From the NCBI RefSeq assembly GCF_024508235.1, contig NZ_CP101943.1, positions 2,453,112-2,517,111 of the forward strand: 64,000 nucleotides of DNA. The letters run 5' to 3'. The notes below the pieces were generated by a model. It saw only the letters and a list, made by a program, of their open reading frames with translations, was not told the origin of the DNA and made no database searches. This document shows, piece by piece, positions 13,463-22,770 of this stretch (position 1 is the stretch's first letter; every line of letters starts with the position of its first letter). This stretch comes from Halococcus qingdaonensis (lineage in GTDB: Archaea > Halobacteriota > Halobacteria > Halobacteriales > Halococcaceae). The position numbers and the translations under genes are program-made.

Positions 13463-13506
13463 TCGAGTTGAGAGGCGGAGCTAAAGCGTCGGTCTGATTG
13501 CAGAAG

Positions 13507-14697
13507 ATGTCTGGTTGGGTGAATGTGTTAGAATTACCGCAACCAGACGGCTTCCTTTCGGCGTGGGATGTCAAAGGTGTAGCGGCGGATGTGATCGGAG
13601 AGCTTCCCTTGCCAGGGATCGAGGGCTCGCCCCTCGATCCTGGCGACATCTGGTCCGTCGTTATCCTTGCCAGCACCAATCAGAGCTCCATTCGAGAGGT
13701 CTGTGCCGAGAATCACGAGGCTCCCTGTGACGATACTGTCTTCGAGTGGCTCCACACGCTCGATCGAGGCTGGCTCGAATTCGCCGCTAACCTCCTGTTC
13801 ATGCAGTTGGCTATGACGATCCTCGACCCTGACCGGTCGAGGATCGTCTCCATCGATTTCGTCGATAACCCCTATCACGGCACCTACAGCGACGAGGTAG
13901 GCGAACTCTGTCGAATGAGCCCCAAAGACGGTACCACGACCTGCCACCGATACTGCACTGCTTACCTCGTCTCGAACGGGAAACCGATCACGCTCGCGAT
14001 GACGTACGTCCGCAGCGACGAGAAGCAGGCCGACGCGGTCGAGCGCGTCCTCGACCGCGTCGAGGCCTATCCCTTCGAGATCGAGCTGCTACTGGCTGAT
14101 TCGGGCTTCTACAACGAGCGCGTCATCCGCCGCTCACGAGAGATCGCCGCGACTGTCGTGCCGGTCGCCGAGAAAGGCGACCGGCTCGAAGAGAAGCTTG
14201 AGACGCACAAATCGTACATGACGACCTACCGGATGTACAAGGACAGCGAGCGGGAACTGCGCTTCCCGCTCGCAGTCTCTGTCTCGTATCAGAACGGCGA
14301 TCGCGGCAAGCATGGTGAAGTGGTCCGAGGGTACGCGGCGTGCGATCTGGGCGATCGCACGCCTACACAGGTCGAACACTGCTACCGAAAGCGGTCAGCG
14401 ATCGAATCGAGCTACCGTCTGTTTCGGAGTGCACGAGCGGTAACGTCGACGCAAGATCCGATCGTGCGGTTTGCGTTCGTGGTGGTGAGCTTTCTGCTGG
14501 AGAACCTGTGGTTGGTGCTACGATGGGCGGTCGTCGCCCGCCCTCGCCGAGGCGGGCGCGACCTGCCCGAGGAGTTCACGTTCTCGGTGTTCTGTGACTG
14601 GATTCGACACGCGTTGGAAGAAGAGTTGGAGCGGCGGTGGAAGATCGAGATGAATGGTGTCGGCGTGCCGGACGCATACACCGCGGCCGCGGGCTGA
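13507..14697 (+). CDS. ISH3-family transposase
   Basis: 396 residues from the ATG at 13507 (a TTG at 13498 is in frame). It is a DDE transposase: candidate acidic residues are in IVSIDFVDNPYHG, LLLADSGFYNERV and YRKRSAIESSYRLF, the last resembling the IS4-type Y-R-E signature. The product cuts and joins the element ends. No frameshift or internal stop is seen, so it is probably active. The stop codon lies inside an 11-base-pair hairpin. Confidence 0.92.
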   Translation: MSGWVNVLELPQPDGFLSAWDVKGVAADVIGELPLPGIEGSPLDPGDIWSVVILASTNQSSIREVCAENHEAPCDDTVFEWLHTLDRGWLEFAANLLFMQLAMTILDPDRSRIVSIDFVDNPYHGTYSDEVGELCRMSPKDGTTTCHRYCTAYLVSNGKPITLAMTYVRSDEKQADAVERVLDRVEAYPFEIELLLADSGFYNERVIRRSREIAATVVPVAEKGDRLEEKLETHKSYMTTYRMYKDSERELRFPLAVSVSYQNGDRGKHGEVVRGYAACDLGDRTPTQVEHCYRKRSAIESSYRLFRSARAVTSTQDPIVRFAFVVVSFLLENLWLVLRWAVVARPRRGGRDLPEEFTFSVFCDWIRHALEEELERRWKIEMNGVGVPDAYTAAAG

Positions 14698-16902: not shown

Positions 16903-17268
16903 CTACTGGCCGACGATGTCGTCTTCGAGCGCCGCGACCTCGTCGATGATGCTCTCGACGTGGGGTTCCGCGACGCCGTTCGCACGCATGGCGTCGGCGA
17001 GATGGCCGGCGACGTGCGAGAACGCCGTCTCCGTGATCCCCATCCCTTCGTGGGCGCTCTGCATGTCGTCGCCGCTGTAATCGACCGGCCCGCCGGCGAC
17101 GGCGCTCACGAACTGGACCTGGTGTGCGAAGAGCGCCTCCATGTCGTAACCCTCGAAGTACGGTTCGAGAAGCGGATCGTCGAGGACGCGCTCGTAGAAG
17201 TTCGCCACGACTGCTTCGACGGCCTCGCTGCCACCGATCTCCTGATACATCGAACTCCGTGCTGGCAT
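16903..17268 (-). CDS. Truncated hemoglobin, group I type
   Basis: 121 residues from the ATG at 17268 (MPARSSMYQEIGG; another ATG at 17250 gives MYQEIGG). The trHb pattern is complete: YQEIGG...VVANFYERVLDDPLLEPYFEGYDM, HQVQFVSAVAGGPVDYSG, and QSAHEGMGIT, which carries the proximal heme His. Such globins bind O2 or NO and often protect against nitric oxide. It is monocistronic, with an inverted repeat 53-95 bases upstream. Confidence 0.92.
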   Translation of the reverse strand: MPARSSMYQEIGGSEAVEAVVANFYERVLDDPLLEPYFEGYDMEALFAHQVQFVSAVAGGPVDYSGDDMQSAHEGMGITETAFSHVAGHLADAMRANGVAEPHVESIIDEVAALEDDIVGQ

Positions 17269-17520: not shown

Positions 17521-18528
17521 TCACGGCTCCCGATCGCGGCTTCTCCGAACCGCGAGGAACCCGCCGAAGACGAGCGGCGAGAGAACGGCCATCAGCCCGC
17601 TCCCGGCCAGCGCGCCGCCCCACGGCGTCGAGAGCACGTCGCCGGCCGACGGGAGATCGGGGTTGCCGACGACGAGCAGCCCCTTCATCCCGAGCTGCTC
17701 GTAGGCCGGGCAGGAGTATTTCACCACCCGATTGCCGGTGAACGTCCACTCGAACGTCTCCCCGTCCGTCCCGCTGAAGTCGGTCCAGAACGACTCGTCG
17801 TCGGCGACGACTGTGAGCGCCTCGCTCTCCTCCAGCCGTCGCCAGACGACCGTCGTCCCGGGATCGACGTGGATCGCTGGTGGGTCGAACGCGAAGATCC
17901 CGCCGTTGCCCGGCGCGCCCACCCCGATCTCGACCCGATCGCGACCGGTGCGGTCGACGACCTCCTCGAAGTTCTCGACATCGTCGAGCCAGCCACCGTA
18001 CGGCGACGATGATTCCTCACTACCGTTCCCCGCGCCGCTCTCGACGGCGGCATCGGCACCGACGAGGATCGCCCCGCGCATCCCCATGCTCCGGTGGGGC
18101 ACGCAGGCGTAGTTGACCGCCCCCTTCTCCTCGACGGTGTGCTCGAACGTGTGGCCGGCCTCGCTCGCGGTCTCGCTCTCGAAGGCCCCGTTTTCGGCGA
18201 CGACGTTGTGGCCACCGCCCTCGCCGGTCCACTTCCAGGTGACCGTGGTTCCTGGATCGACGCGGACGGCCGGCGGCGAGAACGCGAAGTTCCCGCCGTT
18301 GCCCTTCGCGCCGACGGCCACTTCGATCTGCTTCGTTCCCGTCTTGTCGACCACCTTCTCGAAGTTGTCGACGCCGTCGAACCAGCCCGCAGCGCCGCTC
18401 TCCTGTGCGCTGGCGGTTCCCGCCGTCGCGCCGACCGTCCCGATGCCGACGGCCGTGCTGCCGGCGACTTTCAGGAACCCCCGTCGACCGCATCGTGCCG
18501 CGCTTGGGTCCGCTGTGGTTCCCCGCAT
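17521..18528 (-). CDS. Tat-exported protein with two halocyanin domains, the second lacking copper ligands
   Basis: 335 residues. The N-terminus has a Tat signal (CGRRGFLKVAGSTAVG) ending near SAQES, so it is exported. Two homologous halocyanin domains follow, each opening with (D)NFE(K/E)VVD(K/R)TG. Domain 1 has all type 1 copper ligands (His107, Cys142, His145, Met150 in YACVPHRSMGM). In domain 2 the first His is Leu239 and the second is Tyr276 (YSCPAYEQLGM), so copper binding is probably lost. A C-terminal helix plus Arg-rich tail (GSGLMAVLSPLVFGGFLAVRR) anchors it in the membrane. It starts 5 bases after the multicopper oxidase stop, so the two form one operon and may exchange electrons. 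Confidence 0.9.
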   Translation of the reverse strand: MRGTTADPSAARCGRRGFLKVAGSTAVGIGTVGATAGTASAQESGAAGWFDGVDNFEKVVDKTGTKQIEVAVGAKGNGGNFAFSPPAVRVDPGTTVTWKWTGEGGGHNVVAENGAFESETASEAGHTFEHTVEEKGAVNYACVPHRSMGMRGAILVGADAAVESGAGNGSEESSSPYGGWLDDVENFEEVVDRTGRDRVEIGVGAPGNGGIFAFDPPAIHVDPGTTVVWRRLEESEALTVVADDESFWTDFSGTDGETFEWTFTGNRVVKYSCPAYEQLGMKGLLVVGNPDLPSAGDVLSTPWGGALAGSGLMAVLSPLVFGGFLAVRRSRDREP

Positions 18529-18533
18529 CGCGA

Positions 18534-19694
18534 TCACTTCCCGTCGTAGCCGGCGTACTCCATGAGCTGGCCGAAGATGTCGGAATCCATCGCCTCGCGG
18601 TAGACGATCGCGCCGAGCATCCCGCCGGGATAGCTGTCGCCGTTCATCACGTGGTTGACCTTGTGGCAATGCAGGAGGTAGATACCCGGGTCGGCGTCGG
18701 CGGTGAACTCGATCACGCGGCGCTCGGCGGGCGCGACGTTGGTGACGTCCTGATCGTAGCGGGCGACCTCGGGAATCACGCCGCCGTCGTGCTCGATCAC
18801 CTCGAAGCGGTGGTTGTGGGTGTGCAGCGGGTGGGACATGTAGCCGCCGTTGACGAAGTGGACTCGAACGGTGTCGCCCTTGTCGACGATGATCGGCGAG
18901 CCGTCCTCGGGGTGGAACGAGCGCGGGGCGCTCTTGCCGTTGATCGTGAACACGTCGGGATTGCGATCGCGTGGGCTGTACTGGGCGTCGCCGCCGGCCA
19001 TCATCCGGTTGAGCCGGGAGTCCCACTCCTTGACCGTCATGAAGTACTCCTTGTCGGCCGGCTCGTATCCCTTCGGGTCGACGCGGAGGATGCCGTACAT
19101 CCCCATGTCGATGTGACGATGGGTCTGGTAGTGGCAGTGATAGAAGTGCGTGCCGGGGACGTTCGCCGGGATGGAGTAGGTGTGTTTCTCCCCCGGCTCG
19201 ACCTGGATCCCGGTCGTGGTCGGTACGCCGTCGTTCTTCCAGGTCTTCTGTGAGCCGTGGAAATGGACCGTGTGCGGGCGCATCCCGTCGGTGTTGTCGA
19301 GAGTCACTTCCATGTCGTTGCCCTCGGTAGTCCGGAGGATCGGTCCCGGCACGCTCGCCGGCCCGTCGTCGGCCTTGAACGCCCAGACCTGCGGGAGTTC
19401 GATCGGCCCGCCCATCGTCTCCTTGGGATGGACCGCGTGTCGGCACTGCTGGGTGCTGAGCGTCACCTTCCCACCCTGATCGTCGACCTGCACGACCTCG
19501 GGTGGCGAGGTGTACGGGAGTTTGCCGCCGCTCCCGCTCACGTTCGCCGGCGGATCGCCGAGCGTCGGGTTCGTCGCCGACTGCCGGCCACCCGCCGTGC
19601 AGCCGGCGAGCAGCGCCGTGCCGACACCGCCGCTCGCCGCCAGAAACTCCCGCCGTGAGATGCCCGTCCCCGGAGCGCCGATCCGATCGGTCAT
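18534..19694 (-). CDS. Tat-exported two-domain multicopper oxidase
   Basis: 386 residues from the ATG at 19694. A Tat motif SRREFLAASGG is followed by LLAGC, so it is probably a Tat lipoprotein. Two cupredoxin domains each hold a full set of copper residues. Domain 1: His141/144/146 and His186-Cys187-His188-x3-His192-x4-Met197. Domain 2: His288/291/293 and His342-Cys343-His344-x3-His348, Met359. Eight His can form the trinuclear centre and each domain also has type 1 ligands, as in type A two-domain oxidases. It oxidises an unknown substrate (laccase- or nitrite-reductase-related) at the cell surface. It is co-transcribed with the halocyanin. Confidence 0.9.
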   Translation of the reverse strand: MTDRIGAPGTGISRREFLAASGGVGTALLAGCTAGGRQSATNPTLGDPPANVSGSGGKLPYTSPPEVVQVDDQGGKVTLSTQQCRHAVHPKETMGGPIELPQVWAFKADDGPASVPGPILRTTEGNDMEVTLDNTDGMRPHTVHFHGSQKTWKNDGVPTTTGIQVEPGEKHTYSIPANVPGTHFYHCHYQTHRHIDMGMYGILRVDPKGYEPADKEYFMTVKEWDSRLNRMMAGGDAQYSPRDRNPDVFTINGKSAPRSFHPEDGSPIIVDKGDTVRVHFVNGGYMSHPLHTHNHRFEVIEHDGGVIPEVARYDQDVTNVAPAERRVIEFTADADPGIYLLHCHKVNHVMNGDSYPGGMLGAIVYREAMDSDIFGQLMEYAGYDGK

Positions 19695-19720: not shown

Positions 19721-19730
19721 TTGAATAAAC
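19721..19730 (-). promoter_or_regulatory. TATA-like box for the multicopper oxidase operon
   Basis: Minus-strand GTTTATTCAA, 27-36 bases before the ATG at 19694. Confidence 0.5.
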
Positions 19731-19873: not shown

Positions 19874-21256
19874 TCAGACGAGCGGCGCGACCAGTTCCTC
19901 GCCGGCGTCGAGCAACGCCGCGACCCGCTCCTCGCTTTCGGCCTCGGCGTAGACCCGAAGCACGGGTTCCGTCCCGCTCGGACGGACGAGCAGCCACGCG
20001 CCGCTTTCGAGCACGGTCTTGAACCCGTCTGTGGTCACGACGTCCGCGACCGCCTCGCCCGCGACCCGGTCGGGCAGTTCACCCTCCAGCTCGTCGAGTA
20101 CACGCGCCTTCTCGTCGTCCGGACAGTCGACACTGATCTTCGACTGGTGGATTTCGCCGTGCTCGTCGAGTAGGCGATCGACCCGGTCGTCGAGCGGTTC
20201 CTCGCGCTCGGCGGCCGCCGCGAGCAGTGCCAGGAGCACACCGTCCTTCTCCCGGACGTGGCCGGCGACCGAGAACCCGCCCGACTCCTCGCCGCCCACG
20301 AGCGCGTCGGCTTCAGCCATCGCCCGCGCGACCCACTTGAACCCGACCGCCGTCTCGACGACCGACTCGCCGTGGGCCTCGGCGATGCGATCGACGAGGA
20401 ACGTCGTCGAGACGGTTCGCACCGCCGACCCCGATGCCGATTCCAGGAGGAAGTCGTAGAGCGCGGCGAAGAACAGGTTCTCGTCGAGATGGCCCCGTTC
20501 GGGCGTCACCACGGCGAGCCGGTCGGCGTCGCCGTCGTTGGCGATGCCGAGGTTCGCGTCGCCGTCCTGGACGTGCGTCGCCAGCTCGCCGAGATGCTCG
20601 GCGCTCGGTTCGGGCGACGTGCCGCCGAAGTCGGACGCGCGCTCGCAGCGCAGCCGCTCGACCGACGCACCCGCCGCCGAGAGCAGTTCGTCGGTGACAC
20701 CACGGCCGCTGCCGTGCATGGCGTCGTAGGCGACGGTCAGGTCGTCGAGGGCGGCCTCGTCGGCGTACTCCGCCACGAGATCGTGGGCGTGTTCGGCGTG
20801 CGAGGCGACGAAATCCGTCTCCCGGATCGTCCCCCACTCCGCTTCGGGGAGCGACGTCGGCTCGGCGAGGTTCGCCTCGATCGACTCCGTGATCTCGGGC
20901 AGCGCGGGCGCGCCGTCGTCGGGGATGAACTTCACGCCGTTGTACTCCGCCGGGTTGTGCGAGGCCGTGACCATCAGCCCGCCGGCGAGATCGCGGTCGG
21001 CGATCGCCCAGGCCAGCAGCGGCGTCGGGCGATCACGCTCGGGGAGGAGCACGTCGAACCCGTTGGTCGCGAGCACGCGCGCGAGCTCCTCGGCGAACCC
21101 GCGCGAGCTCTCGCGGGCGTCGTAGCAGACGCCGACCGGCGCGTCGCGCCCGTCGAGGTGGGTCGCGACCGCCTGGCCGACCATCCGCACGCGGGGTGCG
21201 GTGAAGACGTCGAGCGTCGCCCGCCAGCCGTCGGTACCGAACGAGATAGCGTCCAT
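19874..21256 (-). CDS. Phosphohexomutase (phosphoglucomutase/phosphomannomutase family)
   Basis: 460 residues, alpha-D-phosphohexomutase family, interconverting 1- and 6-phospho sugars. All four sites are seen: the phosphoserine loop TASHNPAEYNGVKF, the Mg site NDGDADRLAVV, the sugar loop GGEESGGFSV, and the phosphate loop RPSGTEPVLRVY. Substrate choice (glucose, mannose or glucosamine) is not readable. A second family member lies at 26079-27398. It is upstream of the GIY-YIG gene on the other side of a short gap. Confidence 0.92.
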   Translation of the reverse strand: MDAISFGTDGWRATLDVFTAPRVRMVGQAVATHLDGRDAPVGVCYDARESSRGFAEELARVLATNGFDVLLPERDRPTPLLAWAIADRDLAGGLMVTASHNPAEYNGVKFIPDDGAPALPEITESIEANLAEPTSLPEAEWGTIRETDFVASHAEHAHDLVAEYADEAALDDLTVAYDAMHGSGRGVTDELLSAAGASVERLRCERASDFGGTSPEPSAEHLGELATHVQDGDANLGIANDGDADRLAVVTPERGHLDENLFFAALYDFLLESASGSAVRTVSTTFLVDRIAEAHGESVVETAVGFKWVARAMAEADALVGGEESGGFSVAGHVREKDGVLLALLAAAAEREEPLDDRVDRLLDEHGEIHQSKISVDCPDDEKARVLDELEGELPDRVAGEAVADVVTTDGFKTVLESGAWLLVRPSGTEPVLRVYAEAESEERVAALLDAGEELVAPLV

Positions 21257-21806: not shown

Positions 21807-22571
21807 TCATTTTCGTGCCTCGTCGAGTGCCCGTGCAATCAACCCTGCCTGTGCGCCCGCGACGAACCCCGCATCGACGTTCACGGTCGTGAGTGCGGTA
21901 CACGACTGGAGCGCGCCGGCGAGCGCCGCCTCACCCTCTCCCCCATAGCCGTAGCCCGAGGCGGTCGGCAGGGCGATCACGGGAACGCCGACGAGTCCGG
22001 CGATCACGGTCGGCAGCGCGCCCTCGCGCCCGGCGGCGACCACGAGCACGTCCATATCTCGGAGTTCGCCGAGTTCGTCGAACAGTCGATGGACGCCGGC
22101 GACGCCGACGTCGTCGTAGCGCTCGACGGTGGCCCCCATCTCACGAACGACGGCCGCCGCCTCGCCCGCCGGCCCCGCGTCGACCGTGCCGGCGGTGACG
22201 ATCCCGACCGTCGCCTCCAAGACTGGCGGCTCGAAGTCGACCGTCCGCACTCGGAGGACGTTCGCGCGCTCGTCGTGGTCGATCTCCGCCGCAGGCCAGT
22301 CGTCGGAGAGTCGGTCACGCACCGTCGCGGCGGTGTCGTCGTCGATCCTGGTGGCGAGTCCGCGTCCCGTCGTTTCGAGGGCGAGATCGAGTAGTTCGTG
22401 GATCTCGTCGGTCGTCTTCCCCTCGGCGAACACCGCCTCGGGGACCCCGCTCCGTGCCTCGCGGGCGGCGTCGAACCGTCCCGCCTCGCCCGTCGCGTAG
22501 CCCGCGAGGCGCGCTTCGGCGGTCGCTATCGAGATCTCGCCCGCCGCGAGGGCGGCCAGCGTTTCGCGCAT
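21807..22571 (-). CDS. larB: Nickel-pincer cofactor biosynthesis protein LarB
   Basis: 254 residues from the ATG at 22571. LarB carboxylates and hydrolyses nicotinic acid adenine dinucleotide to start synthesis of the nickel-pincer nucleotide. The C-terminal two-thirds is the PurE-like domain: VGIVTAGTVDAGPAGEAA, GREGALPTVIAGLVGVPVIALP, GYGYGGEGEAALAGALQSC. The Cys of QSC is at the position of the catalytic Cys known in LarB. A longer frame reaches 22670 but lacks family sequence. larE is about 8 kb away at 30156; larC is not in the window. Confidence 0.9.
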   Translation of the reverse strand: MRETLAALAAGEISIATAEARLAGYATGEAGRFDAAREARSGVPEAVFAEGKTTDEIHELLDLALETTGRGLATRIDDDTAATVRDRLSDDWPAAEIDHDERANVLRVRTVDFEPPVLEATVGIVTAGTVDAGPAGEAAAVVREMGATVERYDDVGVAGVHRLFDELGELRDMDVLVVAAGREGALPTVIAGLVGVPVIALPTASGYGYGGEGEAALAGALQSCTALTTVNVDAGFVAGAQAGLIARALDEARK

Positions 22572-22770
22572 GCGCTCCCTGGGTGCTGGACGTACTACTC
22601 CTCGTCGTCTTTCCGACGGCCGATCACCGTCGATCGGCGGTCCGCTTCGGCCGTCTTTGGTAGATTTCACACCGCTGTTCGTGGTATTTTCCGACCGCCG
22701 GCGTCGCCATCATCCCGGGTGACTGGACGAACCGCTTCGAGAGCGCCGATATCGAGTGATTATGGCAATA

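Follow-up and report, generated by a model that had tools for sequence, protein, structure and literature searches.

A multicopper oxidase and halocyanin gene pair of Halococcus in which the second halocyanin domain lacks both histidine copper ligands

In the window (the whole stretch of 64,000 nucleotides of Halococcus qingdaonensis DNA analysed here), the gene for a type A two-domain multicopper oxidase is followed by the gene for a two-domain halocyanin whose first domain carries a complete type 1 copper site and whose second domain has lost both His ligands. The oxidase part is already known; the domain 2 change is common to the genus and a sister lineage, and the wider pattern to which it belongs is the real find.

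Results

Gene pair and neighbourhood

Both genes were located on the minus strand at 18534-19694 and 17521-18528, as the earlier note on this DNA had placed them, with the halocyanin gene downstream and 5 nt between the oxidase stop and the halocyanin ATG. The pair and the elements closest to it are as follows:

18534..19694, minus strand: type A two-domain multicopper oxidase, 386 aa, with Tat motif SRREFLA (residue 13) and lipobox LAGC (Cys32)
17521..18528, minus strand: two-domain halocyanin, 335 aa, with Tat motif GRRGFLK and no lipobox
16903-17247, minus strand: truncated globin (PF01152), downstream of the pair
19724..19729, minus strand: TTTATT, candidate archaeal TATA box chosen by eye, 35 nt upstream of the oxidase ATG

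The upstream neighbour of the pair is a phosphosugar mutase gene (19874-21256), and downstream lie the genes for the truncated globin and an MFS transporter. A comparison of the window with 20 longer neighbourhoods and five other loci showed no third gene conserved beside the pair. A truncated globin gene was seen near the pair at every Halococcus locus examined, on its downstream side at some loci and on its upstream side at others. A scan for bacterial promoters and terminators, a type of scan unsuited to archaea, returned no match. Elsewhere in the window, LarB of nickel pincer cofactor biosynthesis is encoded at 21807-22670 on the minus strand (232.1 bits against a cut-off of 175), and an open frame of 399 aa (13498-14697, plus strand) resembles by eye an insertion-sequence transposase. 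The host genome comprises 2.70 Mb in one contig, and its closest named relatives by the halocyanin are Halococcus thailandensis (95%) and Halococcus morrhuae (93%).

The oxidase is an ordinary member of a known family

Pfam profiles matched the oxidase at residues 114-208 (Cu-oxidase_3) and 238-367 (Cu-oxidase_2 and Cu-oxidase), which gives the two cupredoxin-type oxidase domains by which a type A two-domain multicopper oxidase is recognised. The type 1 ligands that the earlier note had claimed for both domains, and the eight His claimed for the trinuclear site, are all present in the sequence; the individual ligands were assigned by alignment and general features of the family rather than from a structure. 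The eight His lie in four HxH-type motifs (residues 144, 146, 186, 188, 291, 293, 342 and 344), and the type 1 sites are:

19134..19136, minus strand: Cys187 of the domain 1 type 1 site His141/Cys187/His194/Met199
18666..18668, minus strand: Cys343 of the domain 2 type 1 site His288/Cys343/His348/Met359

Among full-length relatives position 350 holds M, R, T, Q or L and position 359 is always Met, so that Met359 is the likelier axial ligand. With Met350 set aside, the 17 columns that were checked agree with type A in each of the full-length relatives scanned, so that the type A architecture is backed by sequence and is common to all of them. Type A has been proposed as the ancestral form of the two-domain oxidases. 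The type A state is ordinary for the whole haloarchaeal oxidase family and is already in print: type A two-domain laccases have been reported from Halogeometricum, Haloterrigena, Haloarcula and Halobacterium (Ausec et al. 2011, PMC3192119), and three types of two-domain multicopper oxidase are defined in PMC13151041. Haloarchaeal type A oxidases have these type 1 ligands in each domain together with the eight trinuclear His; the window oxidase shows no family-level difference from them, and its directly downstream halocyanin is a feature of 47 of 138 oxidase loci.

The best PDB sequence matches, which cover both domains, were 3G5W from Nitrosomonas europaea (E 6.5e-39) and 2ZWN, a metagenome laccase (E 3.2e-38). 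Both have His-Asp-His in domain 2 where the window oxidase has His-Cys-His, and the second type 1 site separates the window oxidase from them because Asp there replaces Cys343; we take both to be type C. Identity as NirK was ruled out (70.7 bits against the TIGR02376 cut-off of 296.3). From the signal motifs we infer that the oxidase is a Tat-exported lipoprotein, and its type A class predicts that it would act in a homotrimer with trinuclear sites at the domain interfaces and four-electron reduction of O2.

Oxidase matches at E <= 1e-40 were found in 243 of the 392 genomes of the order, with identities of ~70-75% for most of the matches listed. Five of the ten Halococcus genomes carry a full oxidase, one a fragment and four none. 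Within the family to which the organism belongs, 9 of 18 genomes have a full-length oxidase, which a halocyanin adjoins in 9/9. Three other loci were recorded. A second oxidase of the same genome (464 aa; G000:C1:455141-455440; L002:925-2316, minus strand) has His-Cys-His in domain 1 and His-Gly-His in domain 2, hence by sequence one type 1 site only, and falls under the NirK cut-off. L256 (G247:C5) carries two type A oxidases, which belong to separate clades and lie ~7 kb apart, each with a double-site halocyanin after it. On a plasmid of Halomarina sp. BND7 (L264), the oxidase-halocyanin pair adjoins DUF2249, radical SAM/SPASM and RiPP genes, and a gene annotated as cbb3-type oxidase subunit I lies farther off.

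The halocyanin has lost both His in domain 2

The halocyanin scored 234.9 bits against TIGR03102 (cut-off 93.8) in two stretches and belongs to this family. Its features are:

18055..18330, minus strand: domain 1, residues 67-158, complete site His107, Cys142, His145, Met150
17662..17937, minus strand: domain 2, residues 198-289, without a His ligand and with a modelled plastocyanin fold
17815..17817, minus strand: Leu238 (CTC) at the first His position
17710..17712, minus strand: Cys273, kept type 1 Cys position
17701..17703, minus strand: Tyr276 (TAC) at the second His position
17686..17688, minus strand: Met281, kept axial position
17548..17604, minus strand: C-terminal hydrophobic stretch by hydropathy, residues 309-327, followed by Arg/Arg

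Sequence and alignment agree with the domain 1 site as first described. For domain 2, replacement of the His pair by Leu239 and Tyr276 had been claimed; Tyr276 stands, and the Leu has to be moved by one residue, since Leu238 aligns with His107 and residue 239 is Thr. The accompanying statement that the second domain had lost its ligands holds for both His and passed over Cys273 and Met281, which are kept. CTC and TAC are each one base from CAC. A complete type 1 site, which is present in most two-domain TIGR03102 members and is not family-defining, is absent from domain 2 of the window halocyanin, and the exclusion of a normal type 1 copper site there is supported by these residues.

The C-terminal hydrophobic stretch is a likely membrane anchor; together with the Tat motif, it gives putative signs of export and attachment from a script scan of the sequence. 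Other halocyanins of the genome (L034, L035) adjoin genes that by eye resemble those for a Rieske protein and a ferredoxin subunit of complex I, so the main respiratory halocyanin is probably another than that of the window.

Loss of the His pair recurs beside the oxidase

A survey of gene neighbours in other haloarchaea, a check that the earlier note had suggested, was performed on 138 oxidase loci, a non-random sample in which near relatives are favoured and to which a halocyanin search contributed 80 loci. A halocyanin was called linked when it lay directly downstream of an oxidase on the same strand. From the count of 83 two-domain halocyanins we left out repeat fetches (L033, L036-L041, L043, L046, L047, L066, L054, L059, L060), named copies (L163-L165 of L004, L005 and L008), the fragment L055, the three-domain L197, the split L214 and single-domain proteins. 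Domain states are given by the residues at the four ligand positions in order, for example YCYM for Tyr-Cys-Tyr-Met.

In this survey the loss of the domain 2 His pair recurs only in oxidase-linked halocyanins. A halocyanin lies directly downstream at 47 of the 138 oxidase loci, with the domain 1 site intact in 47/47, and is absent from this position at the remaining 91. The His pair is missing from domain 2 in 31 of the 47 linked proteins (24 YCYM, 1 YCHM, 5 LCYM and 1 LSYT), and the other 16 comprise 12 with two HCHM sites and 4 single-domain HCHM proteins; the latter indicate that a linked partner can do with a single intact domain. All 83 two-domain halocyanins have His-Cys-His-Met in domain 1. 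Among the 43 that are linked, the domain 2 His pair is lost in 31 (one YCHM counted) and 12 are HCHM, and among the 40 that are not directly linked, loss of both His was seen in 0/40, with 37 HCHM and 3 HSxM, a pattern whose third letter differs between two alignments. Fisher's exact test of linkage against His loss gave p 2.6e-13, on which no weight is placed because the rows are related.

A NirK gene lies near 16 of the 40 unlinked proteins (13 HCHM and all 3 HSxM), and neither oxidase nor NirK was seen directly beside the other 24. Of the NirK neighbours, three were checked, two of which are from Halococcus, and all three score above the TIGR02376 cut-off. Among the 24, six loci from Haloferax (L174, L176-L179, L181) have an oxidase ~1.2 kb off on the opposite strand. 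The NirK-near two-domain halocyanins share the family (TIGR03102) and layout of the window halocyanin, but both copper sites are kept in 13 of 16. A different loss happened in the other three, L191, L193 and L198 (from Halobellus, Halobaculum and Halobacterium): their domain 2 has kept the first His, and its Cys and second His are gone.

Conservation of the domain 2 change

Leu-Cys-Tyr-Met was found in domain 2 in all five Halococcus genomes that have the pair (L001 and L004-L007, separate assemblies). Sequence error, which the earlier note had named as a way in which the substitution might prove false, is thereby set aside: the same Leu/Tyr pair stands in five genomes. In a metagenome-assembled genome of the sister lineage, QH_8_64_26 (L008), Cys and Met are gone as well, and domain 2 reads Leu-Ser-Tyr-Thr.

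In an oxidase tree of 128 rows, a second clade of 33 rows was recovered with support 98, and after most of its oxidases comes a halocyanin whose domain 2 reads Tyr-Cys-Tyr-Met. A profile of this domain retrieved 26 domains in 392 genomes at no less than 198 bits, the next match scoring 175 bits; those listed span eight genus codes and five family codes, and one of them, L069 (Tyr-Cys-His-Met), is the sole single-His case. All 26 halocyanins adjoin an oxidase or its remnant. At L276 (G224), an intact Tyr-Cys-Tyr-Met halocyanin stands beside an oxidase that can be read only as a C-terminal remnant. In an alignment of 25 YCYM and YCHM sequences, Cys, Met and the first Tyr are present in 25/25 and the second Tyr in 24/25, and Asp, Leu and Arg after Met are invariant as well. 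Conservation of at least 90% is reached in 50 of the 122 columns, so invariance by itself is no proof of a site in this domain.

Origin, selection and fold of domain 2

A full-length halocyanin tree computed without the ligand columns separated the Halococcus group from the YCYM group, and a single clade of the two was rejected (AU p 0.035). Under the same one-clade constraint p was 0.092 for the domain 1 tree and 0.59 for the domain 2 tree, the constrained tree being slightly better in the latter. These single-domain trees do not back the full-length result, and a claim of two separate origins of the His loss was dropped. The oxidases of the two groups fall in different clades (clade II support 98). 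The His loss in domain 2 arose once or twice.

Pairwise dN/dS (NG86) for ten Halococcus pairs was 0.06-0.23 in domain 2 and 0.07-0.15 in domain 1, and in the YCYM groups domain 2 gave 0.03-0.56 (NG86). Between the two Halococcus subgroups, dN was 0.12-0.16 in domain 2 as against 0.07-0.09 in domain 1. Domain 2 is under purifying selection, yet between these subgroups it evolves faster than domain 1.

The AlphaFold2 model of the window domain 2 was confident (pLDDT 91.8), and that of one YCYM domain was fair (pLDDT 83.9). The window model aligned to plastocyanin 1bxu with Z 13.1 and rmsd 1.7 over 89 residues and to the C-terminal cupredoxin domain of 9cck with Z 13.1 and rmsd 2.4 over 97 residues, so that domain 2 is modelled as keeping the plastocyanin (cupredoxin) fold. 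A top fold match, 9CCK from Nitrosopumilus maritimus, is an archaeal oxidase fused to a plastocyanin-like domain; its cupredoxin is single and fused, whereas the window halocyanin is a separate two-domain partner. Copper-free cupredoxin domains are known from the middle domain of three-domain laccases and from plant early nodulin-like proteins, and these have the fold without type 1 ligands as domain 2 of the halocyanin does. The halocyanin differs from them in that the loss occurred inside a two-domain electron carrier, with Cys and Met still in place and Tyr where the second His would be.

Discussion

We consider it rather probable that the two proteins form a membrane-attached electron-transfer pair in which domain 1 is the donor and the copper-free domain 2 a pedestal. 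Gene order, ligand patterns, conservation and purifying selection are the observed basis of this reading, to which the domain 2 fold is added as a model; from these we infer electron flow, membrane anchor and pedestal role. The lipoprotein-type oxidase and the halocyanin would constitute one membrane-attached unit, with the halocyanin as dedicated partner of the oxidase. Electrons would pass from the blue copper of halocyanin domain 1 to one of the type 1 sites in the oxidase, and O2 would be reduced at the trinuclear cluster. Domain 2, without type 1 copper, would sit between domain 1 and the C-terminal anchor; given the fold that is kept and this position, its most likely role would be that of a pedestal or spacer, which would fix how far domain 1 reaches and which way it faces, and domain 2 may touch the oxidase as well. 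Halocyanins have been proposed as donors for haloarchaeal NirK (PMC8301774, PMC11218638, PMC7754194), and in Haloferax mediterranei, operons with plastocyanin or halocyanin, transmembrane and oxidase genes rise under denitrifying conditions (PMC11218638), operons that are similar to the window pair in gene content, if not necessarily orthologous to it.

Some observations go against this reading. A linked halocyanin is missing at 91 of the 138 loci, so the oxidase does not need one, and 12 linked halocyanins keep both sites; Cys273 and Met281 are kept although a pure pedestal would not need them. Domain 2 may also have decayed in part, since its dN exceeds that of domain 1 between the Halococcus subgroups. 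Another reading makes domain 2 a relic, with domain 1 enough for the oxidase and domain 2 retained only for folding and length while its ligands drift. QH_8_64_26, where Cys and Met have gone too, and the NirK-linked L191, L193 and L198, which lost the other set of ligands, would fit a relic; a domain 2 dN/dS far below 1 and Tyr-Cys-Tyr-Met positions that are invariant or nearly so in 25 sequences fit it poorly, and we regard it as quite unlikely. The earlier note had suggested a docking module, which would attach to the surface of the oxidase. Loss of both His only beside the oxidase (31 of 43 linked, with one YCHM counted, versus 0 of 40) agrees with such a module, as do the new residues invariant in the YCYM group (Tyr, Asp, Leu, Arg after Met), but the rows share ancestry, so that the association rests on one or two events, and linked halocyanins with a single domain or with two sites exist; docking strikes us as unlikely.

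The retained residues might instead form another metal or redox site of Cys, Tyr and Met, such as a Cu(I) site or a Tyr/Cys relay, reduced in Halococcus to Cys/Tyr/Met. Cys, Met and the first Tyr in 25/25 sequences of the YCYM/YCHM group, the second Tyr in 24/25 and Cys/Tyr/Met in 5/5 Halococcus would be expected of such a site, but with 50 of 122 columns at 90% or above this invariance says little, and QH_8_64_26 has lost Cys and Met; we hold the proposal to be quite unlikely. We know of no natural cupredoxin with Tyr-Cys-Tyr-Met-type ligands. Improbable in our view is the more specific form, by which domain 2 was rebuilt as a His-free Tyr-Cys-Tyr-Met cupredoxin site, metal-binding or a Tyr/Cys relay, between the membrane side and domain 1, with Leu-Cys-Tyr-Met of the window as a reduced form.

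The membrane-attached pair that we favour may serve a respiratory side path, copper handling or nitrogen oxide metabolism. In titles and abstracts of the open-licence literature, neither a halocyanin domain without ligands nor a Tyr-Cys-Tyr-Met halocyanin was found. The copper site in the first domain and its loss in the second, conserved across many species, suggest a division of labour, and the conserved Tyr-Cys-Tyr-Met form would be either a non-redox module or an unusual site. What might have been an oddity of one protein becomes a testable rule, namely that a two-domain halocyanin tied to one copper enzyme keeps the copper of domain 1 and often loses that of domain 2, and the pair suggests which protein probably donates electrons to a widespread and apparently little characterised haloarchaeal oxidase family.
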